A stretch of DNA of 64,000 nucleotides from Bryoerythrophyllum caledonicum (taxonomy: Eukaryota > Streptophyta > Bryopsida > Pottiales > Pottiaceae). The notes under the pieces are model-generated. The model was given only the letters and a program-made list of their open reading frames with translations. It was not told the origin of the DNA and did not search any database. Within the stretch, counting starts at the first letter, position 1. The number at the start of each line of letters is the position of its first letter. Both the position numbers and the translations under genes were made by a program. Of the stretch, positions 12,627-63,737 are shown in pieces. Where the stretch lies: positions 1,007,001-1,071,000 of the forward strand of contig OZ020518.1 of assembly GCA_963971425.1 (NCBI GenBank). The letters run 5' to 3'.

Positions 12627-12636
12627 CTGAGAGCAT

Positions 12637-12911
12637 GCCCAGGGCGAATTGAACCCTCGTTGGGGAGTTTCCCGAGGGGGCTTGAGGTGGTGGGGCCAAA
12701 CCTAGTCCCTATTTTGTTTTTGGATGGGCCCTAATTATAGCAAGGGAGGATTTACTAGGGTTAATGATGGCCGTAGGCTCCAAATTTGTCCCCAACAAAT
12801 CCAAAAAAGCCTTTGGACTTCCAAAATAAGAGGGCTAGAAAAATGACCCTAGGCAATTAAGACAGAGCCACCTTGGGTAACTCCCAACAAGGAGGTCAAT
12901 TTACCCTGAGC
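12637..12911. mobile_element. Mutator-type MITE, 10-bp TSD
   Basis: The termini are GCCCAGGGCGAATTGA on the left and TCAATTTACCCTGAGC on the right, about 40 bp of imperfect inverted repeat including the cctcgttgg.../...ccaacaagg arms. The flanks CTGAGAGCAT (12,627-12,636 and 12,912-12,921) are identical direct repeats. A 9-11-bp duplication with long inverted repeats fits the Mutator superfamily. Length is 275 bp with no coding. Relatives lie at 58,613 and 58,901. Confidence 0.8.
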
Positions 12912-13407
12912 CTGAGAGCATGATGCTTTCTCTCATAAAGGTTTCCAACTACGGCAACAACTCTACCAAGGAGCACCATTCTAGCACATCAAATGAATTC
13001 TATCAATCAAGTGTACATATATGTCGTTCCCTAGGAGGCAAGGGTAGTATTGGTGCGATACCTTGTCCCAGTTTTGAAGCGGTTTGAGATTTCAGTCAAC
13101 TAATTTCACTTGACGGATCTCGGGACAAAATTGGTTGCAGTCACAGTATGGGTTATATGTTCTAGTGCCAAGGAAATGCAGCAGGAAGGATTGATTATGG
13201 CTTGGGTATTAACATATTTACATTAGATACTTGTCATTTACTTTATATACCCAGGGTAGTATGCCTTGTAGTTTCATCCAAATAAACATGTAGAAATCAT
13301 GATTTTAGAATTGTATGTGTAGCACTTGTTTTCTATTTTTGGTACATAGTAGTATTTTATAATTCAATAATTTCTTTACTACAAGCTAGATTCTAATGAA
13401 AGGGCAC

Positions 13408-15440: not shown

Positions 15441-15665
15441 CCAGCCGGTTTTTACTAGCCTTGGTGATGTTCAAGCCTTGGAAGTTAATATCTTTACACT
15501 TAATGCTTCGTTTCACAAATGATTTGTTGCACTCACATCAAGGTATGGTATTTCATTATATGACAGTACAAACACGTAAGAAAACAAATGAATCACCAAA
15601 GTATTGGAAGTGATACACGACTAATATTGTCTTATGTTTCAAGATGTATGTATAGATTTTAAGTA

Positions 15666-16253
15666 CAGTGGGGTACCAATCAAAATGTCGTTTTTGTATT
15701 CGCAGTGAGAAAAATTTCAGTACTGCCAACTTTGAAAGCCTCCTAAGAACTCAAAAATTTGTATTTTACCACGAAATTTTTACCAAAGAATTATCTTTAA
15801 GTTAATTACATGTATGCTAAATTTTGAGGCCAAAAGATTCACCAAAAAAAAAGTTATTCAGAATCTACCAACATTGGTAGCTGTGGAAATTTTTTCACTG
15901 CTGCCAACTTTGACAGCCTCCCAAAGATTGATTTTTTTTTTTTTGCCATGAAATTCTTGGATCAAAAACCTCTTTATGTTAATAACATATGATAAAAATT
16001 TCAAGGCCAAAAGATTAATACAAAAAAAGAAATCCACAATCTACCAACATGTGTAGTTGTGGGAAACAATGGGGGAAACCATTTCATTGCTACCAACTTT
16101 GACACCCTCCCAACGGTTGAGAAATTGTCTATTTACCATGAAATTTTTGGCTCAACATGATCTTTATGATAAAAAAATTCGTGCCAAATTTCAAGGTCAA
16201 AAAATTTATACAAAAAAAACATTTACAATCTACCAATGTGTGTAGTTGTGAGA
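15666..16253 (+). repeat. Left terminal inverted repeat (subrepeated)
   Basis: About 580 bp, complementary to 31,420-31,997 over nearly its whole length. It consists of three to four diverged ~190-bp direct subrepeats, each with the order: ccaactttgacagcctccc, accatgaaatttttgg, aatttcaaggccaaaagat, atctaccaacatgtgtag. The same subrepeats occur at 35.19-36.06 kb. Confidence 0.85.
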
Positions 16254-19815: not shown

Positions 19816-21401
19816 ATGTCCCAGCCACAAGCGACCACCACACCTTCCAAGAGGTTGTTTACGAAAGTAATTGGAGAAAATGCATGTCGTGAGGCTGGAA
19901 ACCATAACACCTTAGCTGTCACTAGTGTCATCCAGAAAAAGGGGAGGGCAACAAGTTTTCCCTCTACTAAATATTGGCTAGGCTTCCAAACCATGAATGC
20001 AATTGCTAAAAACAATGGGGGCCTAAAAATCCCTATTTCTACTATAGAAGAATTAGAAAAAAATGGACTTAACAAACAACAAGTGGCTAAGAGGTTGGAG
20101 GCAATGCCTTCATTCTCTTTTGTTCCCCAAGAAGAATGGTCTTCTAAAAGGAGTGATGGGAAAATTGGCAACCACTTCAATCTCACCCAACTTCCAAGTG
20201 AAGTTGAGGTAGATGAAAATGGTTTTGCCTTGGACTACCAAGTGTCAATACACTTTGAATTGGAAAGTCAGCTCTGGTCTAAACATGTTGTGATGGAAAT
20301 GGTGAAAACAAGGCTCAATGAGATGGAGATTCCCTTAGGAACAAGGATTGGAGAACCAATAGCCATTTTTTGCCATCACCAATCCGACAATTGGACTCGT
20401 GTGGTTAAATTGCACCTAAAAAACCCGGATATTGATGCCAAAGGGTTGTTGCAAGGGCGAAAACCTTTCATCCTTACCCTAAATGAGGGAATTCCACACC
20501 TAGGAAGAGTGTGCAAGTCATACGACTCCTTGGCTTTTTCACACCTACTATCAGTAAAAATTACCGGCCCAAATCTTGTAAACAAAGAACCGTATGATTT
20601 ACATGCGGAGATTGTCAAAGACAGCTTTGCAAGAGGTTATGATTTCGAAGTGACAGGAGTAGAAAAAAAGGCTATTCTGAATTTGCATGGGTCAAAACTC
20701 CCTCCCCGGAACAAGCGGCAAAAGTTAAAGACTACAAAGTCTCATTTTATAATGAGATCTTTGGAACTGTTTTTGCAACCCAGAAAATGGATGAGGATGA
20801 GATTGCAAAAAAGAATTGTCTAATTCTCATTGCCAAAAACCTTAACAAAACAAAAAATGAAAAAGAACTTGAGGAAGGCTTAACATCTTTATTAGGGGAA
20901 GAAAATGTGGTGGACACATTCTTCAAGCTTGAACATGGCCGCCATGTTGGTACATGCAATATTGAATGCCTAAATACTGCCGTATACAAAAAACATGTTA
21001 GATAGAGCAAGAAATTTCATGGGAACTATATCATGTTCACTCCGCACCCCAAAAGCTTGGATGGAAGTAACAAACCTAGCGCAGAAGAACTAACAAGACT
21101 AGGATTTACGGATGTGAACGCAGCTGTAGCCAATGCGGTGATAGCCATGGAAAATGGCCCAAACAAAGGCAACGGTGTCACATTAAGCCAACTTCGGAAA
21201 GAAATGAAAACCATGGAAGGGGAAATTGTAGAAGAAGCAAGACAATACGCGGATATGATACAAACAAACACGATAAAGTCTCTAAAAGGGGAAATGTCGA
21301 CTCTTAGATCCCAACTCATTGCAACAATCATGGCAGTGGAAACACAAGCATCGGAACGTGAGCAACGCGTTATTGAAAGCAAGATGGACACCTCAAACTA
21401 A
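19816..21401 (+). pseudogene. Retrotransposon ORF1 protein (RRM-like, coiled coil), broken
   Basis: The start ATG at 19,816 follows a strong acceptor-like tttttatctctacag. About 528 codons run to TAA at 21,399, with one frameshift at an A7 run (20,663-20,669) and one in-frame TAG (21,003-21,005); sequence on both sides joins smoothly. The N-terminal half has no known motif. Around 20,810-21,000 a segment starting NCLILIAKNLN and ending near ECLNTAVYKKHV has the beta-alpha-beta spacing of an RRM. The C-terminal ~75 residues (about 21,170-21,398) are charged heptad-like sequence, probably coiled coil. An RNA-binding ORF1 with coiled coil that chaperones the RNA is typical of LINEs. It shares the reading frame of the downstream poly-Asn/2A/ORF2 stretch. 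Confidence 0.65.
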
Positions 21402-21514
21402 TAGCGTCAAACAACACTACAATATTAAATAACAATATAGTATATATATACTATAATAATAACCATTATAATAATAAACATAGTATATTTATATACTAAC
21501 AAACAAATAAAAAG

Positions 21515-22470
<956 letters not shown>

Positions 22471-22529
22471 AGCAACAACAACACCCTACACCCCTTCCAC
22501 TAATAGCCAAAAACACTACTCATTGCAAA

Positions 22530-22577
22530 CTATTAATTATACTCTGCGGAGACATAGAAACTAACCCTGGACCAATG
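22530..22577 (+). other. 2A ribosome-skipping motif at the N-terminus of ORF2
   Basis: The codons at 22,530-22,574 read LLIILCGDIETNPGP, then ATG at 22,575. This matches the 2A consensus (D-V/I-E-x-N-P-G-P) exactly, with the usual hydrophobic stretch before it. During translation the Gly-Pro bond at such a motif is not formed, so upstream and downstream products are released separately. 2A motifs are known in picornaviruses and in several APE-type non-LTR retrotransposons (trypanosome L1Tc, sea-urchin elements). The frame continues upstream through the AAC tract, with no ATG until 22,575 and stops at 21,399, 21,402 and 21,438. Confidence 0.9.
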
Positions 22578-24273
22578 CCAAATATCTTCCACAACCATCC
22601 AAAAACATACAAAAGATTATCAAAAATATATTTTATACCGAATACTATAAAACTCCACCTCGAATATCAACACCTGGCATCTTCTTTTGCACCACTTCTA
22701 AAAAATAATCACATATTTCACCAAACTTATTCCACCCTCTATCCCAACATTTCCCACTACATACATCAAAAAAACAACAACCACCCATCCACACACATCT
22801 TATTTGCCATTATTACCACCCTCCACCCTTCAATAGACGAATGCAACAATATCACCAACCAACATTCTGCTAACACAAACCCAACATACTGGACAAATAT
22901 ATTACTAAACACCCTATCCTCTCTACATAATCCCCCTGAAAGACATATAGATACTCTCCACCCATACACCAAATTCCTAGAGGAAAACCAACACCTCTTC
23001 GAACACAAAACCACTCTACACATTCACCTATATAACTTTATTCATAGCCAAACCCCACCCCCTTCCCCTGATGAAGTACAACTAAAATTTCCCTACTTCC
23101 CGCATAATCTTATCCTGGAAACTCTTAGATGCTTTGATCCAATTCATGCTTACACGCACCCCACCCCAACACCCGCCTACATTTCCCCTCCACTCTGTAA
23201 CCACGACAATATAGACAATAGAAGCACATATATAACTACATGGAACGCTGCAACGTTAAACACTGCTTTACCATGCATCCATAATCTAACCGCTCACACC
23301 AACACACCATCCGCCATAATTGCCATTCAAGAAACTAAACTAACCGCTACTAAATCCACAAAATACATCCAAAAAACATTCCCCGATTATAAACTTATAT
23401 TTTATAACACTCATTCTCTCACACGATGCATCCAACAACGAAGGCCATATACACCGGCAAGAGGAGGCCTACTCATGCTCATACACCAATCATATGCCTT
23501 CCCCGGGAATATTACTAAAATACCCACCCTGGCTAATATATCACCATATCTTCAAATTACTGAAATTACTAACCGACCCCTTCAACCATGGCTCATTCTT
23601 CACCTATACATGCCCTCTCACATAGAAGACTCTAGGCTTATTCCGGAGATCCAAAATTCCATCACTTCACAAATAAATATACACACTAACCATACAATAA
23701 TACTTTGCGGAGACTTTAACCGAGATATCGCCCTTACCGGACGGCAAAATGGAGGGGTTTCTACCCCCCCAATGGACATAGACTATCAATGGCAAAATTA
23801 TACGGATAACCTAGGGTTATATCTAATCCCAACCAATACATAATACTCTCGTCAAGGTGGACATAATTACACACACTAGCCTAATTGATGGATTTTACAT
23901 TAAAACACCTAACCATACCCGTTATACATCTACCACAAATACCACAACCAACTTAAACTCGGACCACTTCCCAATCCAACTCAATATACCTCACAACACC
24001 CTTATAAGTAGACCTCCCACAATCATCAACTCAAATGATACTAAAATACTAAATCCTATCCCAAAAGAAAACCTTTATAACTTTAATACAATATTCTTTG
24101 AAAAAAATTCACTACAAATAGACTCCCTTACAGATATTCTTTCTAACCACCAACACCTCACACACATACAATGGCAAGAAGCTTACACGACTCTTGACAA
24201 ACTTATTAATGAAATTTCTACTATATTAGAAAAAACCTGTAAAGTGCCCCTGATCCCACAACTCACACCTTGA
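22575..24273 (+). pseudogene. ORF2 N-terminal part: APE-type (EEP) endonuclease
   Basis: The first frame gives 422 residues to 23,843. Residues 1-215 have no recognised domain. Then come the EEP motifs: TTWNAATLN (221-229), IAIQETKL (249-256) and ILCGDFNRD (376-384). The last motif, NSDHFPIQLN, is in the next frame at about 23,953-23,982, so a frameshift near 23,845 splits the domain. APE endonucleases of LINEs nick the target DNA to prime reverse transcription. All four signature motifs (Asn, Glu, Asp-x-Asn, Asp-His) are present, so damage to this domain is recent or limited. Confidence 0.88.
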
Positions 24274-24825
24274 ACCTCAAAACAAGGAGGATATCTCCCG
24301 AGAAAACTAGCCAAAAAGTGGAAACAACATCTTGTCACATACCACACTATTTGTAAAACAATTTACATTGCCAAAACTAACCAAAATTGGCAAACCCACC
24401 CCATACTCTCCAAGATACAAAATCTCTGTCATCCTCAAATCCCACAAGTACCACCACCCAACACCCCTCACGAAGACTGGCTAAAAGACATTGCAATCAT
24501 TGCAAAAACTGCCAACAAAGATGCTCGGAAAATTACTATAAAATATGCAAGAGAATGTATCAAAAAAGCCATTTCTAAATATTGTCAATTATACGAAACT
24601 AGCCCAAAAAAGATTAATAGAAAAGTCTTTTGAAAATAACACAAACCTGCCACTAGACTGTATTTTGGATCAAAACAATAACATTCTAACCAGCCCAGAT
24701 GACATCGCAAACAAAATACATTTTCAACAATCCATAAACAATAGACCATCCACCCCCCATGCCACCTCCAACCACAACATACACCAACATGCACGTGCGG
24801 AGTTAGGCAATACCCATGGCATGAT
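24274..24825 (+). pseudogene. ORF2 linker between endonuclease and RT, frame-broken
   Basis: Short frames in two registers (24,387-24,578 and 24,545-24,913) cover a basic, Lys/Asn-rich stretch typical of the spacer before the LINE reverse transcriptase. The frame changes at least once. No motif is recognised. Confidence 0.6.
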
Positions 24826-25752
24826 TTGGACGGATTTACCATTGATAAAAGAGGCGAACCGACAACACCTCTCCACACATATTATAACAGAGACACATAC
24901 AACATGTGCCTAAAAAAGTTGGGAACCAACAAAGCCCCCGGACCGGACCATATACCTAACTCAATTCTAAAAAACATGCCTCCAAGATTCCATGACCTTC
25001 TATCATTATTCTTCCTTCATTGTTACAAACAAAAATCCATTCCCGCATCTTGGAAAACAAGTCTAACAATCTTATTATACAAAAAAGGCAACCCATCCGT
25101 GCTACCTAACCACCGACCTATTGCCTTAGCTAACACCATTTACAAGTTATATATTAGCACACTAACATCAATATTATCGGCCTATGGGGAAAAACACCAA
25201 ATACTACACGAAAGCCAAGAAGGGTTTAGAGCCGAGAGAAGTACCACCCAACAACTTCAAACCCTCATAGCAGCTCTTGAGGATGCAAAATTCACTAATA
25301 ATGACATTTACATACTCTACATTGACTTCAAAAACGCATTTGGTTCCATTGACCACCCTCGATTGCTAGCCATTATGAGCGATCTTGGGTACCCGGAAGA
25401 TGCAGTCACACTAGTTGGTAATATATACTCCCAATCTACCACTACATACACTGGAGAATTCTTTGGTAATACACGCCCTATCCCCATCCAACGTGGTACC
25501 ATCCAAGGCGATACATTGAGCCCATACCTCTTTATTATCTTTCTAGAACCTCTATTGAGATGGCTTCAAAGAGGCAATAATGGCTACACATTTGGCACTT
25601 CAAAAATCACCGTAAACTCGGCCGCATATGCCGACGATCTAGCGGCCATCTCCGGTCGTCTTAAATCACTCCAAATTCAATCAGACAAAATAGACAAATT
25701 TTGTCTATGGACCGGGATGGAACTTGGGGTCCAGAAATGTGCCGTAACTTGA
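24826..25752 (+). pseudogene. ORF2 reverse transcriptase domain
   Basis: A 308-codon frame holds the LINE RT blocks in order: NKAPGPDHIPNSILKN (start), HRPIALANTIYKL, EGFRAERSTTQQLQTL, YILYIDFKNAFGSIDH (motif A Asp), IQRGTIQGDTLSPYLFIIF (motif B) and AAYADDLAAISG (motif C, YADD at 25,627-25,638). A TGA at 25,750 ends the frame, but similar sequence continues in the same frame (CPNKSKINL..., YIYLGINLVPS) to about 26,000, which is the RT thumb. The enzyme copies element RNA into DNA at the nick. Confidence 0.95.
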
Positions 25753-26430
25753 TGCCCAAACAAATCCAAAATAAATCTGATCGCCTTCAAAGCCCTTATT
25801 CAAGCTACCAATATCCACTATCGTAACCAACCAATTCCGGTTCTCAACCAAAACCAACCCTATATATACCTTGGAATAAACCTAGTCCCATCTTTAAAAT
25901 GGAAAATTCAAATTCACGCTACTACTACAAACTTATTAAGCAATGCAAGGAACTTACACTTTGTCTGGCCACATTGCAACAAAAAATAAAAATGATTGAT
26001 ACCATCATACGTCCGGGTATCTCATATAGTTTCTATGCGGTCCCTTATTCCATGCCCGCCATACACAAACTTGATAAAAAAAATCATAGCCATACAAAAG
26101 AAAGTATGCGGACTCATTAATTGTACGCCCCACGTCATAACACAACTCCCCCACGAACTATTCATATTAGAAGCTTTTTCCCTCAAAAATGCCTACCCAC
26201 GTTGCATTGGAGAACAACTCCAGAATGCACTTGACGATAAAGGACGACTATGACTAATTTACAGTGGACTCCTTTGGCACATCCTTGCCATTTATGGAGG
26301 AGCACAATACCTCCAAAGACTTAAAAAATCTGATTGACTTCGATCTCCCATTACCCGCACACTTTTTCTACTCAAAACAGAAGGTCAAACATTTCTAAAT
26401 AGCACACTAGAAGATTTCCTACCAGGCCCT
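25753..26430 (+). pseudogene. ORF2 thumb and linker, frame-broken
   Basis: Continues after the TGA with the thumb (YIYLGINL) and basic helices (EQLQNALDD region near 26,210-26,250). The peptide KSD*LRSPITRT near 26,325-26,355 matches SDCIRSPITQTFFLL in copy 2 on the minus strand at about 63,790-63,850. This shows the two copies are homologous through here. Confidence 0.75.
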
Positions 26431-28041
26431 GTGCCGCTCGAACAAAATTGGGCAAATGAAATACATAACCTTCCTAGACTTGACCGACAATTATCCGCCA
26501 AACTCCTACAAAAACTTTTCTCTGCAAACATTACCGATCTAAAACAAATTACACTACCAAATGGAACACACCTTATGGACGACAAGAGCTACAAAACACT
26601 CTATGGTACCCCTCATAAATTAATAAAAAGTGCACTAAATATTGCTAAACAATTATTTTGTCACCCTCCATGTCTCCCTATATGCCCCAACCCTTGCACC
26701 ACTCACGCCCCACCATACACACTTAAAGACTCATACATCATCAATCACAATGACATCCACCCCAACATCAACCTCCCATTAATCCCTCCAAACCCGCCAC
26801 ATTCAAGACCATATGCCCCTCCACCACATATATTAAAAAATCCTTTCATACACCCAATAAATAACATAACCGCGCACAAACATAGAAAGTACATTGACTC
26901 TAACAACATAAGCAAACAATATGCGTCATACCTACGCCATTGGTCCCACAATAACAACACCTACGCCAAAGGGCTCCCACAAAGAAATCTTTTCCCTTGG
27001 CACAACCCAAATACTTCCTTATATAATACCAAAATCCTCACACAATACTACCTTAGAACTCAAAACAATTATTACCTAAATATCATACAATTACACCACC
27101 CCCAAGCACAACCTCGAGATAGAAGATTTGTCACACCACCTCTTATTATCCCCCTCGTTAACATCTTTACAACCGAATGCAACCCCGAAACGGGCATCCT
27201 AGCACAAAAAAATACAATCAAAATACAACAAGATAATGCCCACATATACGAAGGTAATGGTAGACATCTAATAACCATACCACTCGCTAGACTACAATGG
27301 CTCTGGAACCAATATTACAACGCACTACAAACCCCCATTAACATTGAACCAATACCCCAAACATTTGAAACCGAAATTGTTTGGCTATACCAAAGATATA
27401 ACTACCGAATACCCAAAAATGACCCCCTTAAAAATGCACACTATACAATACCCGATCCTATCTTAGACTACCTTATTACATCTCTGAATATCACACATTC
27501 ATACTTCTCATCCCCCGTTACATGCTCCACAAAAATCTCAAAATTTTACTCTCCATTCGAATGCGATAAGATTTTTGGTTCTCTTGGAAAAGCTTTTGAT
27601 TACAAGTGGAGCGGAATAGGCCTTGCACACCCTCACAACGAAGAAGAAACACAACAAGCAACACATTGGGCACGCCTAGCGGCAAATAATGATCCCAACC
27701 ACAACATCACCATTATTATCACTCCCGACACTCATTGGTACCACAACCCTAACCCACACTTAGGCCCATTCCCGGACTCTCACATCATAGTACTATTTGA
27801 AGCGGACTCTATGACTTACAAAGAACCCACTATACCACCGCAAATACGAACACCCCGCCTTGAACCAGCAACCCTACGTATCCTATGTATACATCAACAA
27901 ACTCGAGAAATAGGTACTCTAGAAAACCTCACTCATCTCACTTTGATAGCAAAAAATCTAAACATTAACAAGGTATACACCGCAATTGCTTCTCCCACAC
28001 CCATTTCAACCCGTGTAAACCGCAACAAAAAAATGGTCTAA
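26431..28041 (+). pseudogene. ORF2 central region with PCIF1/Dam-like methyltransferase-like domain
   Basis: A 536-codon frame. Residues 1-300 have no recognised domain. From about residue 310 come LYQRYNYRIPKNDPL, then SYFSSPVTCSTK (about 350), YSPFECDKIFGSLGKAFDYKW (about 370-392), GLAHPHNEEE (397-406), and ITIIITPDTHWY (about 428-439). The order SPLN-like, D-x-x-FGS-x-G, (N)PP-like, then a strand ending in P-x-x-x-W resembles the catalytic half of PCIF1-type N6-adenine methyltransferases. The catalytic NPP(F/Y) position is HPH (27,628-27,636) in this copy and also in copy 2. Function is inferred and may be non-catalytic. A generic Rossmann-like fold is an alternative. Confidence 0.55.
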
Positions 28042-28081
28042 TACCCCCCACACAAACATCTCCACATCACCAATTACCGAA

Positions 28082-28840
28082 TTGAGCCTCCCCCTCTCCT
28101 ACTACCAAATTAATACAGACCTTAAATTTGATCCCAACTTTAGCTACTACACTGAGGGCTCCTTTAAAGAACCAACCGAAGTAAGCCCGGGACATTGGCA
28201 CCGAGAAAAAACCGGTTATAGGATATACAATTCAACCAAACAAATTAAATTAGGCAAAAGACTACATGGACTCCAAAATATTCTAAGAGCCGAAATGATG
28301 GCTATACACAAAACCCTTAAAATAATCACCACTCAATACTCAAACAAACCGGCTCATATTTTTACAGATTGCATAAATGTATTATATCTCCTTAATACAC
28401 ACATTAAACACCCTACTTTACACAACAGTCATCTGGATAAAACTATCCTTACATCTATGGTTGCAATGCTCCAAAATCGTACACAGATTACTACACTCCA
28501 CAAAGTCCAAGCTCATGCTAATATCGATGGCAATGAACAAGCCGACAAACTAGCAAAGGAAGGAAGAGAAAAAACCCACAAGAATGCCGAACACCCATAC
28601 AAACACGCCCATGCCACTCCATATTACTTTCATAGATATGAATGGCCTTCTATAGGTGAAACTCCCGATAAAGGCCCTATACGATTCTTGGACAAATACC
28701 TCAAAAAACATGATCTTGTAAATAATCTAGAAAAACTTACAGAAAACTTACAGAAAACTTCCCCAATATTGATAAATGGACTGGCAACCCAAACATTCAT
28801 AACGTACTGTCCAACAATTTTTGGAAAAATCCCATTATAA
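28082..28840 (+). pseudogene. ORF2 RNase H domain (catalytic Asp replaced)
   Basis: A 252-codon frame, one frame step from the previous one. RNase HI motifs: YYTEGSF (residues 23-29), RAEMMAIHKTL (about 71-81, catalytic Glu), HIFTDCINVLYLL (about 96-108, catalytic Asp), and HANIDGNEQADKLAKEG (about 145-161, His and final Asp). The first motif normally reads YTDGS; here the Asp is Glu (codon 28,154-28,156), and in copy 2 it is Asn. RNase H removes the RNA strand after first-strand synthesis. Confidence 0.87.
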
Positions 28841-29614
28841 CGGATCCTCAAATCACATGGCTAATCAAATTCCGCACCGGACAATACATGGGTAATGCCC
28901 GCAAACAACTCTTCTTTAGAATAGAAAGATTCCCTACAATTACATGTCCAATTTGCAACACCACGGACATGGCTATATGTCTTACTCAAGTGCCAAAACC
29001 CCCATATATACTCACTAATTGTTAAAAGACATAACAAAGCCGTATGGGCTATTTGTAAACTATTTATATCATCAACCAAATCCCGGTGTTTCATTCTCAT
29101 GAATGCCGGAACCTTTAATGACAATCCACAAGAAAATACGGTCCCTCCTTGGCTATTACCATGCATCTGTCATATTCAAAGATGCCACTGTAATGCAAGA
29201 TTCAAACCGGACCTACTATGTGTTAGAGGACTTTCATACAAAGACCCCCCACCAAACCACATAGACCCTGGTCTCACCATCCAATTTATTGAATTCACAT
29301 ATTGCAATGATAGATTCTCTCCGGACACTATTGCAAACAAAACAAATAAATGCCAACCACTACTTGATGATATTCAAGCACTAGGATGGAAAGTAGACCC
29401 CCTCATTGTCATCACTGCAGGTGCTAGAGCCACCACCTTCATTCCCTCAATGACAACCCTTGAAGAAACATTTAAAATCCCCATCACTTCAATCAAAACC
29501 ACCTTTTCAAATATTAACATTATTGCAATTCAACATGCTATGTCGATACTCCTACATAAACATAAACTTAAAAACAACCAACCCCTTCCGGACGCTTCGA
29601 ACCCCCCTCCATAG
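28841..29614 (+). pseudogene. CCHC knuckle and restriction-like (PD-(D/E)XK) endonuclease
   Basis: Near 28,930 the sequence FPTITCPICNTTD begins a C-x2-C-x9-H-x4-C knuckle; it is intact in copy 2 and frame-broken here. A 171-codon frame (29,099-29,614) then gives ARFKPDLLCVRG (residues 33-44), TIQFIEFTYCNDRF (60-73), then K81 and K84 (KxxKY in copy 2), and GWKVDPLIVITAGARAT (96-112). A PD, a strand with an acidic residue, a downstream Lys and a CCHC just upstream is the layout of the restriction-like endonuclease of R2-type elements. An APE domain at the other end makes this a dual-endonuclease element. Confidence 0.65.
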
Positions 29615-29872
29615 ATCTACACCTGCATTTGCATTTCATTGTACTTGCCCTCCCTCTTTTGGGACTTTTTGGGACTTTTTGGGACCTAGGGTCCTTTTGA
29701 TATTGGTTACTAGTTAGTGGGTACATAGTGTCTCCCCTTGAAAGGGGGAAGTAGTTCCATACTACTAACCCATGCCCGATGGGCATAGACTTAGTGGTGA
29801 AATGAACGGACACTTCACTCACACCGGCCCTCTACGGAGACCGGCGTTCTTCTTCTTCTTCTTATAATCTCT
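29615..29872 (+). other. Retrotransposon 3' UTR and tail
   Basis: Starts after TAG at 29,612. It has three copies of gggacttttt (29,660-29,690). A block gtgtctccccttgaaagggg (about 29,729) is shared with copy 2 as gtgtctaccctcgaaagggg. It ends with a stem (accggccc...agaccggc, 29,823-29,846) followed by (CTT)n. The same stem plus CTT tail closes copy 2 at about 60,315-60,360. A conserved 3' stem is probably the RT recognition site. Confidence 0.7.
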
Positions 29873-30430
29873 AGTCATAAATGCTTCTCAAAAAAATCAA
29901 GGATAGCCAAATTTAGTTGTGTGCACTTGTCACATCTCAAAGACTGCGCTTGTTTAAAAATTGGAGACCATATATGTATGAAGAAGTTTTTTCCTCTCAA
30001 TAAGAATGCTTGCATTTACAATAGAGCATTTTAGGAGGTGGGATGTGGGATGATGAGAGAAGCAAGTGATGGGTGATTATTTTCTAAGCACAAGATTGAA
30101 ACTTTGTGAACATGAGTGATTGAGTGAATGAAAGATGAGTTAACTGAGTAAGTCTAGGCTATGTGATAACTGAGTGGCTGAGGCATGGGATGAGTGTCTG
30201 AGGATACATGGAGATATGTGAGATTTTCTTTAAGAGTGAGTGAGGTTATAACGTACATGTGGTGACTGGTGAGGTCTGGTGAATGAGTGAAGGCTGTGAG
30301 GCAGGATGATGGTGAGTGATTGAGGGTATGTGAGATTTTTTTCTGATGACTGAGTCAGGTTATATATGTGCTCAGTGAGTGAGGCTGGATTATGGTGATT
30401 AAGTGAAGGCTAGATCATGGTCACTGAGTG
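29873..30430. repeat. GTGAGTGA-rich degenerate repeat
   Basis: From about 30,045 to 30,430 the sequence is a loose repeat of gtgagtga / gactgagt / gaggct words (for example tgagtgattgagtgaatgaa). There is no fixed period and no coding. It sits between the retrotransposon tail and the Tc1 transposase. Confidence 0.55.
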
Positions 30431-31411
30431 ATGGCTATTTCAGATGAAACTCGTGCTTGCATAGTAGGTTTGAGTGAGGTAGGGAAGACAGGAGTTTTCA
30501 TTGCAGCTATTGTTAGAATCCATGTTAGAACAGTCCAGAGGGTAGTGAAGAAATTTCGAGAAGATTGAACCTATAAGTGCAAACCTTGTGGTGGAAGTCA
30601 TGCTAAAAAGCTTAGTGATAGAGATGTCCGTACTATTGTACGTGTCTCAAAAACTCATCGTCGCTCGACACTCTCTGAGATCACTAATATATGCTCTACT
30701 CAAGTGTCTAGATCGACTATTCGAAGGGCCTTACATGAGAGTGGCATTTTCAGTCGAATTGCTGTTAAAAAACCTTTTTTGATACATCGTCACATGTCTA
30801 AACGATTGGCATTTGCTCAAAAGTATTGTGGGTGGACTATAAAAGAATGGGAGAGAGTTGTTTGGACAGTTGAGTCTACCTTTGAAGTTGGAAAAAATTC
30901 TAAACAAGTTCATGTTTGGAAAAATGCATATGAGCGCTATTCATCAAGTTGTATAGTTCCAACTTTTAAGAGTGGGAGAACTTCTTTGATGATTTGGGGT
31001 GCATTTTCTGGAGGGCAAAAGTCACAACTTGTTTTTATGCCCAAAGATAGACGTTCTGGTAAGGATTTTGTTGCAGTGGTCTACAATGTCGAGTTGCTTC
31101 ATTTTATGAGTAGAGTGCCACAGGGATTACTCATGGAAGACGACGCACCTGTCCATCGTAGCAAAGTATGTGAAGAATGGAGACAAACACACCTTTTGGA
31201 GAAGCTCGATTGGCTTGCAAATTCTCCCGATCTCAATCCAATTGAGAACCTTTGGAAGATTTTGAAAGATGCTGTACAACATGGCCCAATATGTCCAAAA
31301 AATTTAGATGACTTAAAGGTAGTTATTGAAAGAGAGTGGAGGTTAATCAATGGTACAAAGCTCCTTCAACTATGTCATTCTATGCCCTCTAGGTTACGAG
31401 CAGTGATTTAG
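30431..31411 (+). pseudogene. Tc1/mariner DD34E transposase, inactivated
   Basis: The frame runs from ATG at 30,431 to TAG at 31,409 (about 326 codons, normal for Tc1), interrupted once by TGA at 30,566-30,568. N-terminal part: helix-turn-helix (RTVQRVVKKFRED; VSRSTIRRALHESGI). Catalytic core: WTVEST at about 30,863-30,880 where the first Asp is Val; EDDAPVHRS (second Asp, 30,704-frame residue 146); SPDLNPIENLW (Glu, residue 181). The spacing is 34 residues, that is DD34E. The stop and the Asp-to-Val change both abolish activity. The gene lies just inside the right inverted repeat, as in intact Tc1 elements. Confidence 0.9.
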
Positions 31412-31419
31412 GCAAATGG

Positions 31420-31997
31420 AGGACATACACGTTGGTAGATTGAAAAATATTTTTTTTTATAAGTTTTTTGACCTTGAAATTTGGCATGAATGTTGTTATC
31501 ATAAAGAGCATGTTGTGCCAAAATTTTCATGGTAAATAGACAATTTCTCAACCGTTGGGAGGGTGTCAAAGTTGGTAGCAATGAAATGGTCCCCCATTGT
31601 TTCCCACAACTACACATGTTGGTAGATTGTGGATTTCTTTTTTTGTATTAATCTTTTGGCCTTGAAATTTTTATCATATGTTATTAACATAAAGAGGTTT
31701 TTGTTCCAAGAATTTCATGAAAAAAAAAAAATCAATCCTTGGGTGGCTGTCAAAGTTGGCAGCAGTGAAAAAATTTCCACAGCTACCAATGTTGGTAGAT
31801 TTTGAATAACTTTTTTTTTGGTGAATCTTTTGGCCTTGAAATTTGGCATACATGTAATTAACTTAAAGGTAATTCTTTGGTAAAAATTTCGTGGTAAAAT
31901 ACAAATTTTTGAGCTCTCATGAGGCTTTCAAAGTTGGCAGTACTGAAATTTTTCTCATTGCGAATTCAAAAACGACATTTTGATTGGTACCCCACTG
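31420..31997 (-). repeat. Right terminal inverted repeat (subrepeated)
   Basis: Reverse complement of 15,666-16,253 with scattered differences. It starts near catacacgttggtagattg and ends GGTACCCCACTG, followed by TA. It carries the same three to four subrepeats in opposite orientation. Confidence 0.85.
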
Positions 31998-31999
31998 TA

Positions 32000-32264
32000 C
32001 ATGAACAATGTCGTTTTCAAAAAAAAACAAAAACCAATTTAATAATCATATATTCTACATAAGTTTAAAACAATAGTTATCATATATTTTGCATATTATT
32101 CACGTACGTACAAGTTATTTAACGCAATATGTAACGCAACATGTAACGCAACATGTAACACAACAAACACAAAAATTTAATACAAAAGATTTAGTAAGAT
32201 TTTAGCATTTTAAAAATAAAAAAATTGGGGGCAAAATCTTTTGGTTTTTGAGTGCCGAGTAGTG
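32000..32264. repeat. AT-rich spacer with 14-bp tandem repeat
   Basis: Between the Tc1 right end and repeat B. A unit of about 14 bp (acgcaacatgta) is repeated three to four times at about 32,123-32,163. No gene. Confidence 0.6.
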
Positions 32265-35112: not shown

Positions 35113-35186
35113 TATGTGAATTCTTGACAAGGTCAAAAGAATATGACCCGAATGTACAGTGATGGCATTTTTTCATATTGAAATTT

Positions 35187-36062
35187 CACTTTTGTCAACT
35201 TTGACACCCTCTCGAGGGCTGAAAATTTGTTAATTTCCCATCATACTTTTGGCACAATATCATCTTTAAGTTAATAACATGTGTGCCAAACCTCTAGACC
35301 AAAAGATTTACATAAACAAAGATATCTAAAATCTACCAACATGTGTAGTTGTGAGTCATCCATTGGTGCCAATTTTCACACCCTCCCTAGGGCTAAAAAT
35401 TTATTAATTTACCATGAAATTTTTGGCACAAGATCATCTCTACATTGATAACATGTCTGTCAAATTTCAAGGCCAGAAGATGAATATGATAAAATATATT
35501 CAAAAACATTTCTCATAGTTACACATGTTGGTAGGTTTTGAATATCTTTTTTTGTATTCATCTTCTAGCCTTGAAATTTGGCACACATGTTATCAACATA
35601 GAGATGATTTTGTGCCAAATTTTTTACGGTAATTAACAACTTTTTAGCCCTCGAGACGGTGCCGAAGTTGGTAGTAGTGAAGTGGTTTCTCCAATTGTTT
35701 CTCACAACTACACATGTTGGTTGATTTTGATTTTGATTTTGATTTTTTCTTTTGAAGATCTTTTGGACTTGAAATTGAGCACACATGAAAATTAACAACT
35801 TTTCAGTTCTTGAGAGGGTGTCAAAAGTTGGCAGTAGTGAATTTTTTCTCACAACTACATGTGTCGGTAGATTTGATTTAATTTTTTTAAAAATTCATCT
35901 TCTTGCCTTGAAATGTGGGATACATGTTGTCAACTTAGAGATGATCTTGTGCCAAAAATTTCATAATAATTTAACAAATATTCAGCCCTCATAAGGGTGA
36001 CAAGCTGGTAGCAATGAAATTACTTTCTGTGGGAATGCAAAAACGCCGTTTTGATTGTCACC
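35187..36062. mobile_element. MITE-like foldback built from Tc1 TIR subrepeats
   Basis: The left half (35,187-35,365 and on) carries the subrepeats of the 15,666 TIR in left orientation; the right half (about 35,510-36,055) carries them in right orientation and ends aaaacgccgttttgattg, close to the 31,997 terminus (aaaacgacattttgattgg). The centre is near 35,460-35,500. It looks like an internally deleted, diverged relative of the 16.3-kb element. The outermost bases have decayed and no clear TA pair was confirmed. Confidence 0.65.
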
Positions 36063-58612: not shown

Positions 58613-58889
58613 GCCCAGGGCGAACTGACCCCTCGTTGGTACTTACCCGAGGGGGCCACGAGGTGGTGGGGCCAAACCTCGCCCCTGTTTTGTTTTTGGA
58701 TGGGGCCCTATTTATAGCAAGGGAGGGTCCTCTAGGGTAAACAATCGCGGAAGGCTCCAAATTTGTCAAAAAATCCAAAAAAAGCCTCCTAACCCCCCAA
58801 AATTAAATGGGCTAGAAAAATGACCCCATGCAATTAAGACGGAGCCCACCTCGGGTAAGTACCAATGAGGGGGTCAGTTCGCCCTGGGC
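58613..58889 (+). mobile_element. Mutator-type MITE, 9-bp TSD
   Basis: CTAACAACC (58,604-58,612) then GCCCAGGGCGAACTGACCCC; ...GTTCGCCCTGGGC then CTAACAACC (58,890-58,898). Inverted termini of about 40 bp and a perfect 9-bp target duplication. Related to the element at 12,637 in sequence throughout. Confidence 0.88.
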
Positions 58890-58900
58890 CTAACAACCAG

Positions 58901-59178
58901 GGCCAGGGAGAATTGACCCGCTCGCTTGTCCTTATCCGAGGTGGGCCCCGTCTTAATTACATGGGGTCATTTTTCTATCCCTCTTATTTTGGGGGGTCAC
59001 AAGGTTTTTTTTGGATTTTTTGGACAAATTTGGGGCCTACGGCTATTGTTTACCGTTGAGGACCCTCCTTTGCTATAAATAGGGTCCCATCCAAATACAA
59101 AATAGGGGCGAGGTTTGGACCCACCACCTCGTGGCCACCTCGGGTAAGGACGAGCGAGGGGGTCAATTCTCCCTGGCC
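58901..59178 (-). mobile_element. Mutator-type MITE inserted into the flank of its neighbour, 9-bp TSD
   Basis: AACAACCAG (58,892-58,900) then GGCCAGGGAGAATTGACC; GGTCAATTCTCCCTGGCC then AACAACCAG (59,179-59,187). The interior is the reverse complement of the neighbour at 58,613, with differences. Its target site overlaps the right target duplication of that neighbour. Confidence 0.88.
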
Positions 59179-60300: not shown

Positions 60301-60578
60301 CTAAAAAATCTTGCAATGGAGGAAGAAGAAGAACGCCGGTTCCCGCACGGGACCGGCGTGAATAAAGTGTTTGTTCGTTCCATTACTAAGACCATGCCCA
60401 CCGGACAAGGAATTAGTAAACTGAAACTACTTCCCCCTTTCGAGGGTAGACACTCTGTAACAAGTAGCCCGAAACCCATCAAACAAACAATCAATCAATC
60501 TAACCAACCAACTAACCAGGCAAGTAGCCAAACACCAGAAAACCAACCAATCCAGAAAAATCAAGGCGGGGGAAGAGT

Positions 60579-61091
60579 TTAAGGGGGGTCCTGTGTATCC
60601 GGAAGGGCTTGGTTGTTTTCAATTTTGCGTTTATGTAATAAAATGGACATGGCATATTGAGTAGCGATGGTGTTAATTTTTTTAAAGGTGGTTTTAGTTG
60701 TTTCAACGGGTATTTTGAAGGTATCTTCTACAGTTTTCATAGATGGGATAAAGGTGGTGGCACGAGTGCCAGATGTGATTACAATAAGGGGGTCCACATT
60801 CCATCCAAGGGCAATGATGTCGTCAATAAGGGGTTGGTATTTATCTATTTTGTTTTGAATTGTTTCCGGAGAAAATCTATCGTTGCAACATGTGAATTCA
60901 ATGAATTGAATGGTGTAGTCTTGGTTAATGTGATCGGGTGGTGGATCATTATATGTTAAGCCTCTAACACAAAGGATGTCCGGTTTGAGCCTAGCATTGC
61001 AATGACACCTTTGAGTCTCACATGAGCTTGAGAGTAGCCAATGAGGGACCGTATTTTCTTGTGGGTTGTTATTAAAGATGCCGGCGTTCAT
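60579..61091 (-). pseudogene. Copy 2 restriction-like endonuclease domain
   Basis: A 170-codon frame with ARLKPDILCVRG, IQFIEFTCCNDRFSPETI, NKIDKYQPLIDD and GWNVDPLIVITSGTRAT. The PD, the Glu of IEFT and KxxKY are all kept, in agreement with copy 1 and with R2-type nucleases. Confidence 0.65.
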
Positions 61092-61133
61092 TAATATAAA
61101 ACATCTTGATTTGTTGTAAGAAGTGATTAGTTT

Positions 61134-61499
61134 TCAGATTTCCCATACCGCTTTATTATGTCTTTTAACAATTAGGAAGTGTATGTGGTGATTTTGGCAT
61201 TTGAGTAGGACATGAAGCCATGTGTCGGGGTCTGTTGAAGGGCATATGGGGCATGTTATGGATGGGAATCTTTCTATTCGAAAGAAGAGTTGTTTGCGAG
61301 CGTTTCCCTTATATTGACCAATACAGAATTTGATGAGGCATGTTATTTGTGAGTCTGAAATGATGGGATTTTTCGAGAAATTTGTAGAGAGTTCATTGTC
61401 TATGTTGTTATTGTTAGTCCATTTTTCTATGTTAGGAATATTTTCTGAGATTGTGTCCAGGTTGTTGTAGAGGTCTTGTTTTTCGAGATATTTCCCCAA
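61134..61499 (-). pseudogene. Copy 2 CCHC knuckle region
   Basis: A 121-codon frame with an intact C-x2-C-x9-H-x4-C knuckle (CPICPSTDPDTWLHVLLKC), preceded by LIKFCIGQYKGNARKQLFF and followed by HFLIVKRHNKAVWEI. It joins RNase H to the nuclease. Confidence 0.8.
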
Positions 61500-62200
61500 A
61501 AATCTAATCGGGCCTTTATCGGGGGTATCTTCTTTGGAAGGCCAATCTTCTTTTTGGAAGTAGTATGGGGTAGCATGGGCATGTTCGTGTAGTTCTTCTG
61601 CCGTTTTGTGTGTTTTTTCGCGGCCTTCTTTTGCTAGTTTATCTGCTTATTCATTGCCATCAATATTGGCATGGGCTCTCACTTTGTGGAGGGTAGTGGT
61701 GTTCGTTCGGTTTTGTAACATTTGGACCATTGACATTAGTATGGTTTGGTCGGGGTGGCTATTGTGAAGGGTAGGGTGTGTTATTTAAGTGTTTGATAAG
61801 TGAACTGCATTTATGCAATCGGTGAATATGTGAGTGGGTTCATTATTGTATTTAGTTGTAATGATTTGTAGTATTTTGTGGATGGCCATAAGTTCTGCTC
61901 TAAGGATATTTTGTAATCCATGGAGTCTTTTGACTAATGTAATTTCTTTGGTAGAGTTATATATGCCATATCCAACTTTTTCTCTACGCCAATTTCCCGG
62001 GCTGATTTATTCTGGTGGTTTAAAGGATCCATTGGTATAATAGCTATGTGCGGGGTTAAATTTTGGTGTGGTATGAGTTGGATAATTTGGGAGGGGGGGC
62101 GGTGCAAGAAGGTAGTTTAATGTATTGTTGATGTAGTTTAGTTTTGACCATTTTTTACTTCGGTTTATGGGGGTTTGTATAGGTGTAGGTGGGACCATTT
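61500..62200 (-). pseudogene. Copy 2 RNase H domain, broken
   Basis: Frames in several registers. YYTNGSFKPPE at about 62,010-62,045 is the first motif, with Asn (codon 62,031-62,033) instead of Asp. Further on, the Glu-containing stretch (near 61,880-61,915), the ADK motif (near 61,630-61,660) and HAN-x-DGN-x-x-A can be read with stops between. Confidence 0.7.
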
Positions 62201-63737
62201 TTGTGTATAATCGGTGTATGTTTAAGTTGTGTGTTATGGAGGTAACTTCGGCAAGTTGTTCTATACTGCCAAGGGTTTGATTTTGATGGTGGACACATGT
62301 TATTTGTAATGTGGATGGTTCAATTTGGGGTTTTTTTAACTCGGGTGGAATAGTAGGTTCTTCATATGGTATTGAGTCTGCTTCAAATAATTCAATAATA
62401 TGAGAGTCTGGGAATGGGTTTGAGTGTTGGTTATTGTTTTGGTACCAATTGTGGTTTGGTGCGATGATGATTGTATTTGTGTTGTTTGGATCATGTTTGG
62501 CGGCAAGTTGAGCCTAATGTATTGCTTGTTCCATTTCCTTCTCATTGTGAGGGTGAGCTATACCATTACCGATCCATTTGTAGTCAAAGGCTTTTCCCAG
62601 GGATCCGAATATTTTGTCTCTTTCAAAAGGTGAATAGTATTTTCTTAGTTTGGTAGAGCATGTGACAAGGGAAGAAAAATATGATTGTTCAATGTTAAAG
62701 GATGATATTAGTGAGTCTAAAATGGGTGTGGGTATTGTGTATTGCGCATTTTTGAGAGGGTCATTTTTTGGGATTCGATATTTATATCTTTGGTATAGCC
62801 AAATTAGTTCGGTTTCAAAGGGTTGGGTGGATGGTTCTATGTTTGTAGGAGATTGTAGTTTTGTATTGTATTGATTCCATAACCATTGGAGTCGAGTAGT
62901 GGGAATAGTGTGCAAATGTCGGCCATTTTCATCATATAGATGTGCTTGATTTTTATCTATTTTAATTGTGCTTGAGAATGTAAAGATATCATTTTCGGGA
63001 TTGCATTTTGTTGTATAAATGTTTAATAGTGGAATAACTATGGGTGGTGTTACGGATCTTGAGTCTGAGAATTGTTCCTGGGGGTGGTGGGCTAGGATGA
63101 TGTCTGAGTAAATTTTGTTTTGAATTTTTTGGTAGTATTGTTTTAATTTTTCGATATTATGTGTGGAGGTATTGGTGTCGTGTCGTGGGAAAAGGTCTCT
63201 TTGGGGAAGCCATTTATTGTATGTATTATCATTGTGTTGCCATTGGCATAAATATTTTGTGTAGGTATTTTGTATATTATTTGTGTTTGTGTGTTGGATA
63301 TGTTTGTGGTGTATGATGTTGTTAATGGGATATATGGTAGGGTTTTTGGGGATATATGTTAGGGGACGGGGATGGAATGGATGTGGGAGGCTAGGGGGAT
63401 TGATTGGTGGGGGGAGATTTCTTGGGGTGTTGTTATTGTTGATGGTGATGAATGAGTCTTGAAGTATATAGGAGTATGAGTGTACGTTACAAGGGATATG
63501 ACATGTAGTGGGGCTTGTTGGGTGGCAAAATAGTTGTTTAGCAACATTTAGAGCACTTTTTATTAGTTTGGATGGGGTGAAGTGGTAGGTTTTGAAGTCT
63601 TCATTGTTCATGATGTGTGTGCCGTTAGGTAAAGTAATTTGTTTTAGTTCAAAAATATTTTTTGAGAGGAGTTTTTGTGGAAGCTTTTGGCAGGTTGGGT
63701 ATTGAGTGTGTTGTGATTTAGTGTTTCTTGGCGCCAT
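62201..63737 (-). pseudogene. Copy 2 central region with methyltransferase-like domain
   Basis: A 407-codon frame (62,514-63,737) plus continuation after a TAG at 62,514. It contains DKNQAHLYDENGRHLHTIP, ELIWLYQRYKYRIPKNDPL, SYFSSLVTCSTK, YSPFERDKIFGSLGKAFDYKW and IAHPHNEKEM (HPH codons 62,547-62,555), then FPDSHIIELFEADS in the continuation. The same HPH in place of NPP as copy 1 indicates it was fixed before the copies split. Confidence 0.6.

Follow-up and report, generated by a model that had tools for sequence, protein, structure and literature searches.

We consider it fairly likely that ORF2 of a LINE in Bryoerythrophyllum caledonicum is expressed by double recoding, with a −1 frameshift at the end of ORF1 followed by release at a 2A sequence, and that a trinucleotide microsatellite, often read as polyQ, separates the two as a spacer that varies freely. 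This reading is built from comparisons of sequence. The element lies in a stretch of 64,000 nucleotides (contig OZ020518.1 of assembly GCA_963971425.1, positions 1,007,001 to 1,071,000 of the forward strand), referred to here as the window, and all coordinates are those of the window. The 2A peptide LLIILCGDIETNPGP, recognized from its translation, from other copies, from database relatives and from codon changes, is encoded at 22530–22574 (+) and is followed directly by an ATG at 22575–22577; the in-frame translation of 21450–22600 ends ...THCKLLIILCGDIETNPGP, and then comes the ATG. The window element itself is best explained as a decayed copy of a high-copy, partly young family.

Structure and relationships of the element

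ORF1 (19816–21398, + strand) was delimited from the reading frames, a start codon at 19816 and 85 protein relatives of its X-joined reading. A frame change near 20650 and one in-frame TAG interrupt it. Its end and the stop codon (21392–21401, +) are followed by a linker at 21402–22529 (+), defined with TRF and from the linkers of other copies, which holds a (CAA)n microsatellite at 21515–22483. ORF2 (22575–29611, +) has been disrupted by several frame changes and by stops, and was traced from the reading frames and from 34 long relatives of its X-joined reading. It contains an APE-type endonuclease (PF03372, 23238–23744, +), matched at E 3.8e-5 with 24.0 bits against a cut-off of 24.5; a reverse transcriptase (RT; PF00078, 25090–25749, +), recognized by Pfam, by a PDB search and by its place in a tree; and an RNase H (PF00075, 28202–28567, +; Pfam, E 6e-12). 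An APE domain N-terminal to the RT is also present in the relatives P0122, P0136 and P0145. The C-terminal region of ORF2 (28925–29611, +) is RLE-like, with the pattern KPD...E..YC.D, as judged from an alignment to the C-termini of seven long relatives in which the D and the E are invariant. Pfam gave no match in this region, and a PDB profile search with it returned weak R2 entries only (E 0.13). The 3′ end of the element (29612–29864, +) carries a TTC-type terminal repeat; its limit is approximate, the alignment with a second copy ending at 29861. This second, related copy (60319–63691, −), whose 5′ part lies beyond the window, is 70% identical to 26497–29861 over 3.4 kb.

The initial annotation had called the element a plant-type LINE. 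We regard a Dualen/RandI-like non-LTR retrotransposon as the best explanation and would not assign it to the plant L1 elements, because an RLE-like C-terminus is present together with the APE domain and because the RT falls among green-algal rows, with a Dendrobium row outside. The 34 long relatives include 11 proteins from Haematococcus lacustris, one from Pleodorina starrii and one from Dendrobium nobile. In an RT tree built from database relatives only, named Dualen/RandI references not being among them, the window sequence grouped with the Haematococcus, Pleodorina and unnamed rows (28 rows, support 98/96). The row from Dendrobium, a flowering plant, which we take to be an L1, fell outside this group with six others. 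The nearest match of the window RT in the PDB search was R2 (E 1e-28), followed by LINE-1.

Several further observations concern the parts of the element. A stretch of the PCIF1_WW family (PF12237) lies between the RT and the RNase H in both copies, at 27349–27726 (+, Pfam, E 1.3e-10) and 62517–63737 (−, E 2.1e-9), and is also listed for 5 of the 34 long relatives. PCIF1 is a cap adenosine methyltransferase. Josephin (PF02099) is listed for 11 of the 34, among them P0131, P0136 and P0145; in the last two it is placed after the 2A and ahead of the APE domain. The sense strand of ORF2 is markedly poor in G, with a GC skew of about −0.3 to −0.6 over 22500–30000, and that of ORF1 has a skew near 0. 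This change near 21.4 kb could have marked ORF1 as a foreign insertion, an explanation that was rejected because an ORF1 end stands before the 2A in 51 of 60 genome copies. A comparison of ORF1 with the ORF2 relatives gave no similarity; the listings of ORF1 and ORF2 relatives share two contig sizes (403715 and 10476), which is a hint only.

Other repeats surround the element. An inverted repeat of ∼575 bases (15663–16241 and 31427–32000, 94.6% identical, 15 kb apart) encloses the element region, and pieces related to it recur at 35181–36057. A Tc1/mariner-type transposase ORF (PF01498, PF13358) is found just 3′ of the element at 30704–31411 (+), and a self-complementary repeat of ∼560 bases (85%) lies at 58615–59176, with a partial match at 12636–12914. 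The host also has an amino-acid transporter gene (PF01490), which we take to be LHT-like and of plant type; a PDB search with this transporter gave no match.

Conservation of the 2A sequence

The genome of the window (437 Mb in 894 contigs) yielded 5052 candidates, from which 96 copies were scored and the 60 top-scoring of these were examined. The strict motif [DGCN][VI]ExNPGP is kept in 57 of these best 60 of 96, with a small bias toward the motif from a query in which the 2A makes up 15 of 437 residues. The window copy reads DIETNPGP, in agreement with the StopGo/2A core (D/G/C/N)(V/I)ExNPGP. The three copies that do not match read NLGP, NRGP and NPSP, and in one of the 57 motif-bearing copies (L067) a stop replaces the Cys codon directly 5′ of the motif. 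When P0065 was used as a second query on the same genome, 79 candidates were scored and the main hits listed began at residues 43–65, upstream of the P0065 2A (residues 70–77); P0065 is of the same family, and hence this is no independent test.

Database relatives gave a similar picture among the 120 listed of 202, 81 of which begin at or after the Met and carry no information on the motif. A strict match was present in 30 of the 39 that reach upstream. One core 2A residue is changed in each of P0019, P0022, P0027, P0033, P0058, P0074 and P0076, and in P0025 and P0038 the corresponding sequence is out of frame or nothing 2A-like is present. The residue after NPGP is K, R or I, and not Met, in 7 of the 30 strict-motif relatives; in the genome copies, all 28 representatives have Met after the 2A.

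Among these 28 representatives the codon changes within the 2A are mostly synonymous. By a crude count that includes broken copies, pN/pS is 0.26 for the 15-codon 2A window, 0.85 for the preceding 9 codons and 0.13 for the following 30 codons. The preponderance of synonymous changes, together with the seven relatives that lack Met after NPGP, indicates that the 2A codons are translated and conserved at the protein level. The motif that the initial annotation had noticed in front of the ORF2 ATG is therefore where it was reported, recurs in other genome copies and in upstream-reaching relatives, and appears, as a translated and conserved sequence, to be placed so as to split an ORF1-derived product from ORF2.

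The hexapeptide LIILCG that precedes the D at p12 fits, as judged by eye, the L-rich StopGo class ending in (A/S/C)G, one of whose motifs is described as active in an assay (PMC12846837). Beyond the immediate family, NPGP occurs in 8 of the 34 long ORF2 relatives and is missing from 26, among them the best hit P0122, so that the 2A is not a general feature of the wider group. Six Haematococcus proteins among the 34 carry GD(V/I)E(A/V)NPGP, P0144 has GDIHPNPGP and P0153, a distant row, has GNVEKNPGP; in P0136, P0145 and P0144 the NPGP is upstream of the endonuclease. Collections of viral and prokaryote contigs contained matches to the 2A pattern, yet no relative was confirmed in them.

Frame relation of ORF1 and ORF2

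The ORF1 C-terminus could be located in 51 of the 60 copies. ORF2 and the 2A are shifted by −1 relative to ORF1 in 36 of these. The ORF2 frame is open, defined as free of stops between the ORF1 stop codon and the 2A, in 35 of the 36 and closed in the other. In all 35, the ORF2 frame extends back into ORF1 by 19–121 nt, as would be required of a downstream frame entered by a −1 shift, and the two remaining frames contain 2–24 stops each. ORF1 is in the ORF2 frame in seven copies, including the window copy (L009), and in the third frame in eight; none of these 15 is open. The 16 of 51 copies outside the −1 open type are read here as products of decay. These DNA comparisons come from one genome and from related copies, and the open −1 type accounts for 10 of 23 representatives (<97% identity).

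The relation is clearest in the copies with the longest frames. An open frame of at least 2000 aa, a length that includes the linker, was found in 27 copies. The ORF1 end was located in 24 of them (the exceptions being L036, L037 and L062), and all 24 are −1 and open. As ORF2 alone is ∼2340 aa, the 2000-aa cut does not itself demand an open linker. In the open copies no stop interrupts the linker ahead of its repeats, a state reached by 0 to 1.6% of mononucleotide shuffles, the tests being on related copies that are not independent of one another.

The end of ORF1

The last codons of ORF1 are nearly invariant at the level of bases. GTCAAAC stands directly before the ORF1 stop in 49 of 51 copies, the exceptions being L040 and the window copy, which has CTCAAAC followed by TAA. 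TAG or TAA follows the ORF1 end in 50 of 51 copies, the stop being lost in L068. This segment, GTCAAAC plus TAR in intact copies, is the proposed −1 shift site, identified by comparison of copies and by column conservation. Across 23 representatives, TCAAACTA at the ORF1 end is 96–100% conserved. This includes the third codon positions −7 (G), −4 (A) and −1 (C), at 96–100%, whereas the 13 remaining third positions among the final 48 bases are conserved at 39–91%.

The 85 database relatives of ORF1 (identity 37–55%) end in a similar way. Asn is the final residue in 48 of the 50 that reach their end, and the 38 best-aligned relatives have no third-last residue other than L, T or M and no penultimate residue other than S, T, I or L. 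These C-termini, available as protein sequences only, fit codons of the form xxG NNA AAC.

When the heptamer G_UCA_AAC is set against X_XXY_YYZ, the A_AAC half fits and the P-site half does not. Slipping from AAC back to AAA supplies what a −1 site requires of its A-site half. On our own reading of the codons, re-pairing from UCA to GUC in the P site would be poor. RNAalifold predicted no pairs in the consensus of 22 sequences from the proposed shift site, each 35 nt long, and single RNA folds at this site differ among lineages.

The linker and its CAA repeat

In the ORF2 frame the CAA tract reads as polyQ in an abundant subfamily and in many other copies, and as poly-Asn or His/Asn in some (e.g. 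L050, L056 and L063). In the window copy it reads as poly-Asn in the 2A frame, an alignment of frames attributed to indels. The abundant subfamily consists of 22 copies with the peptide RLSIILCGDIETNPGP, in which the tract contains 52 to 227 CAA repeats. Of the 21 in which the ORF1 end was located, 20 (including the reference) are at least 99.6% identical over the 730 bases around it; L030 gave 86% in an ungapped comparison, presumably because of an indel. Since these copies are near-identical and their repeats nevertheless range from 52 to 227, the subfamily is young and the length of its repeat varies freely. AT palindromes like AGTATATATATATACT recur in the linkers of L034, L046, L049, L057 and others. 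The ORF2 frame translates them as VYIYT or VYLYT, and they could represent RNA hairpins or mere low-complexity sequence.

Two other explanations of this region were discarded. Insertion of a 5′-truncated element into a CAA microsatellite is at odds with the presence of CAA-type tracts between ORF1 and 2A elsewhere and with the TTC at the 3′ end of the element, although some RLE elements are described as targeting microsatellites (PMC4640811). Ribosomes scanning onward from ORF1 to reach the ATG that follows the 2A would not have a free path, given that linker AUGs are out of frame in 7 of the 35 open copies; a further 23 have one in-frame linker AUG and five have none.

Proposed expression of ORF2 and alternatives

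We consider it probable that ORF2 is reached by a −1 frameshift at the ORF1 stop, followed by passage through the variable linker and release at the 2A, so that ORF2 would start with Pro. ORF1 would be translated and most ribosomes would stop at TAR. A fraction would slip by −1 on the last codons, with G UCA AAC being re-read as GUC AAA CUA, and would continue in the ORF2 frame through a stop-free repeat linker of variable length, polyQ in the abundant subfamily. After LIILCG-DIETNPG, StopGo would free the ORF1-linker-2A chain and the ribosome would go on to make ORF2 as a separate chain from Pro. ORF2 would then need no start codon of its own, and its level would be set by the rate of the shift. 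Among the features read directly from the copies (the 2A, its conservation at the protein level, the −1 relation, the open linker and the base-conserved ORF1 end), the shift step would account for the base constraint on the ORF1 end, for the constant −1 offset and for the frame being open, and the release step for the 2A. It is from these features that we infer slippage at the ORF1 end and a 2A that works in the host.

The main rival, which we judge unlikely, is that translation initiates within the linker, by reinitiation, by CAA-aided internal entry or at a non-AUG codon, and that the 2A trims or retargets a short repeat-rich leader. CAA-rich leaders favour ribosome entry, which would suit such a model. 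So would the 23 of 35 open copies with an in-frame linker AUG, which comprise the abundant subfamily and two other copies. These 23 reduce to only 2 of the 10 open representatives, and an in-frame AUG is absent from the other eight. Leaders of this kind, translated and released through an N-terminal 2A, are described for sea-urchin NLRs (PMC4981915). However, the ORF2 frame is also open 5′ of the AUG and into ORF1, which initiation in the linker does not require, and both the conserved bases of the ORF1 end and the fixed −1 relation would be left unexplained.

It is very improbable that ORF2 simply starts at the ATG behind the motif, with the 2A-like codons an untranslated relic or a chance resemblance. 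The ATG is there in all 28 representatives, and the 81 of 120 listed database gene calls that begin at this point or later would agree with such a start; the conserved amino acids of the motif, its mostly synonymous changes, the K, R or I in place of Met in seven motif-keeping relatives and the open −1 linker would not.

The initial annotation had suggested that ORF1, 2A and ORF2 form, or recently formed, a single frame cut by skipping or joined by stop readthrough, and this we find scarcely credible: frame 0 of the window copy does agree with it apart from stops, and the more distant relative P0144 has a 2895-aa frame with its GDIHPNPGP near residue 1000, but ORF1 shares the ORF2 frame in only 7 of 51 copies, none of them open (against 35 open in −1), and the 85 ORF1 relatives showed no 2A motif and, where they reach their end, mostly stop at the same place (48 of 50 after Asn). 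The tract of ∼360 codons that the annotation had seen upstream of the motif does share its frame with the 2A and, across intervening stops, with the 3′ portion of ORF1, and consists of (CAA)n. That continuity of frame reflects decay of the window copy and not an ancestral trait, as four stops lie between its ORF1 stop and the 2A and the frame of ORF1 differs in the copies with an open linker. A frame-shifted and non-conserved upstream sequence had been named as evidence against the annotation; the upstream sequence is frame-shifted relative to ORF1 but is kept open.

Significance and comparison with known systems

If frameshifting followed by 2A release is the correct reading, the lineage would provide a non-LTR element combining both recoding steps and a case of native 2A use in a plant-like nuclear genome. 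A literature search of titles and abstracts, which took in few subscription papers and is thus weak evidence of absence, led us to recognise neither a 2A in Dualen/RandI elements nor a LINE that combines a frameshift with a 2A. The way in which LINEs keep ORF2 protein scarce relative to ORF1 is unsettled for many clades, and the present sequences predict a definite and testable answer. They also provide 2A sequences that evolved naturally in a plant-like nuclear genome, and in the variable repeat a possible spacer with little length control between a frameshift site and a release site. A 2026 survey of viral StopGo sequences reports no evidence of natural use in plant viruses (PMC12846837).

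Dualen/RandI elements are described as having two endonucleases and an RNase H (PMC4640811). The window element resembles them in its APE, RT, RNase H and RLE-like region, in an RT that lies beside those of Haematococcus and Pleodorina, and in a 3′ repeat that is not poly(A), as tabulated for RandI (PMC3747384). A 2A is also present in 6 of the 11 Haematococcus proteins among the long relatives. It differs in its −1 related ORF2 and its PCIF1_WW-family stretch and, whereas the Dualen/RandI elements are from green algae, its host has a plant-type amino-acid transporter gene.

For LINEs that bear a 2A, Odon 2013 is reportedly the main survey. Such sequences are described in LINEs of trypanosomes (L1Tc) and of animals, for example sea urchin (PMC5972666, PMC11512398, PMC4981915). 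There, as here, the 2A shares its reading frame with the enzyme ORF of a LINE that has an APE domain; in contrast, the present family has an ORF1 with a conserved stop and a −1 step before the 2A, and its RT appears to belong with the dual-endonuclease elements.

The proposed shift site resembles the X_XXY_YYZ sites of viruses such as arteriviruses in having A_AAC as its A-site half and, close by, a stop in the zero frame. It departs from them in the GUC of its P-site half and in that no stimulatory structure was found within 35 nt. Deviations in the P-site half are on record, for example GUU in equine arteritis virus (PMC3542737). The combination of StopGo and a −1 frameshift on one mRNA is described in cardioviruses (PMC5009743), and the likeness lies in having both recoding events on a single mRNA. 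In the cardioviruses the shift is just downstream of StopGo and diverts ribosomes to termination, whereas the shift proposed here would occur upstream and would open the way to the 2A and ORF2.
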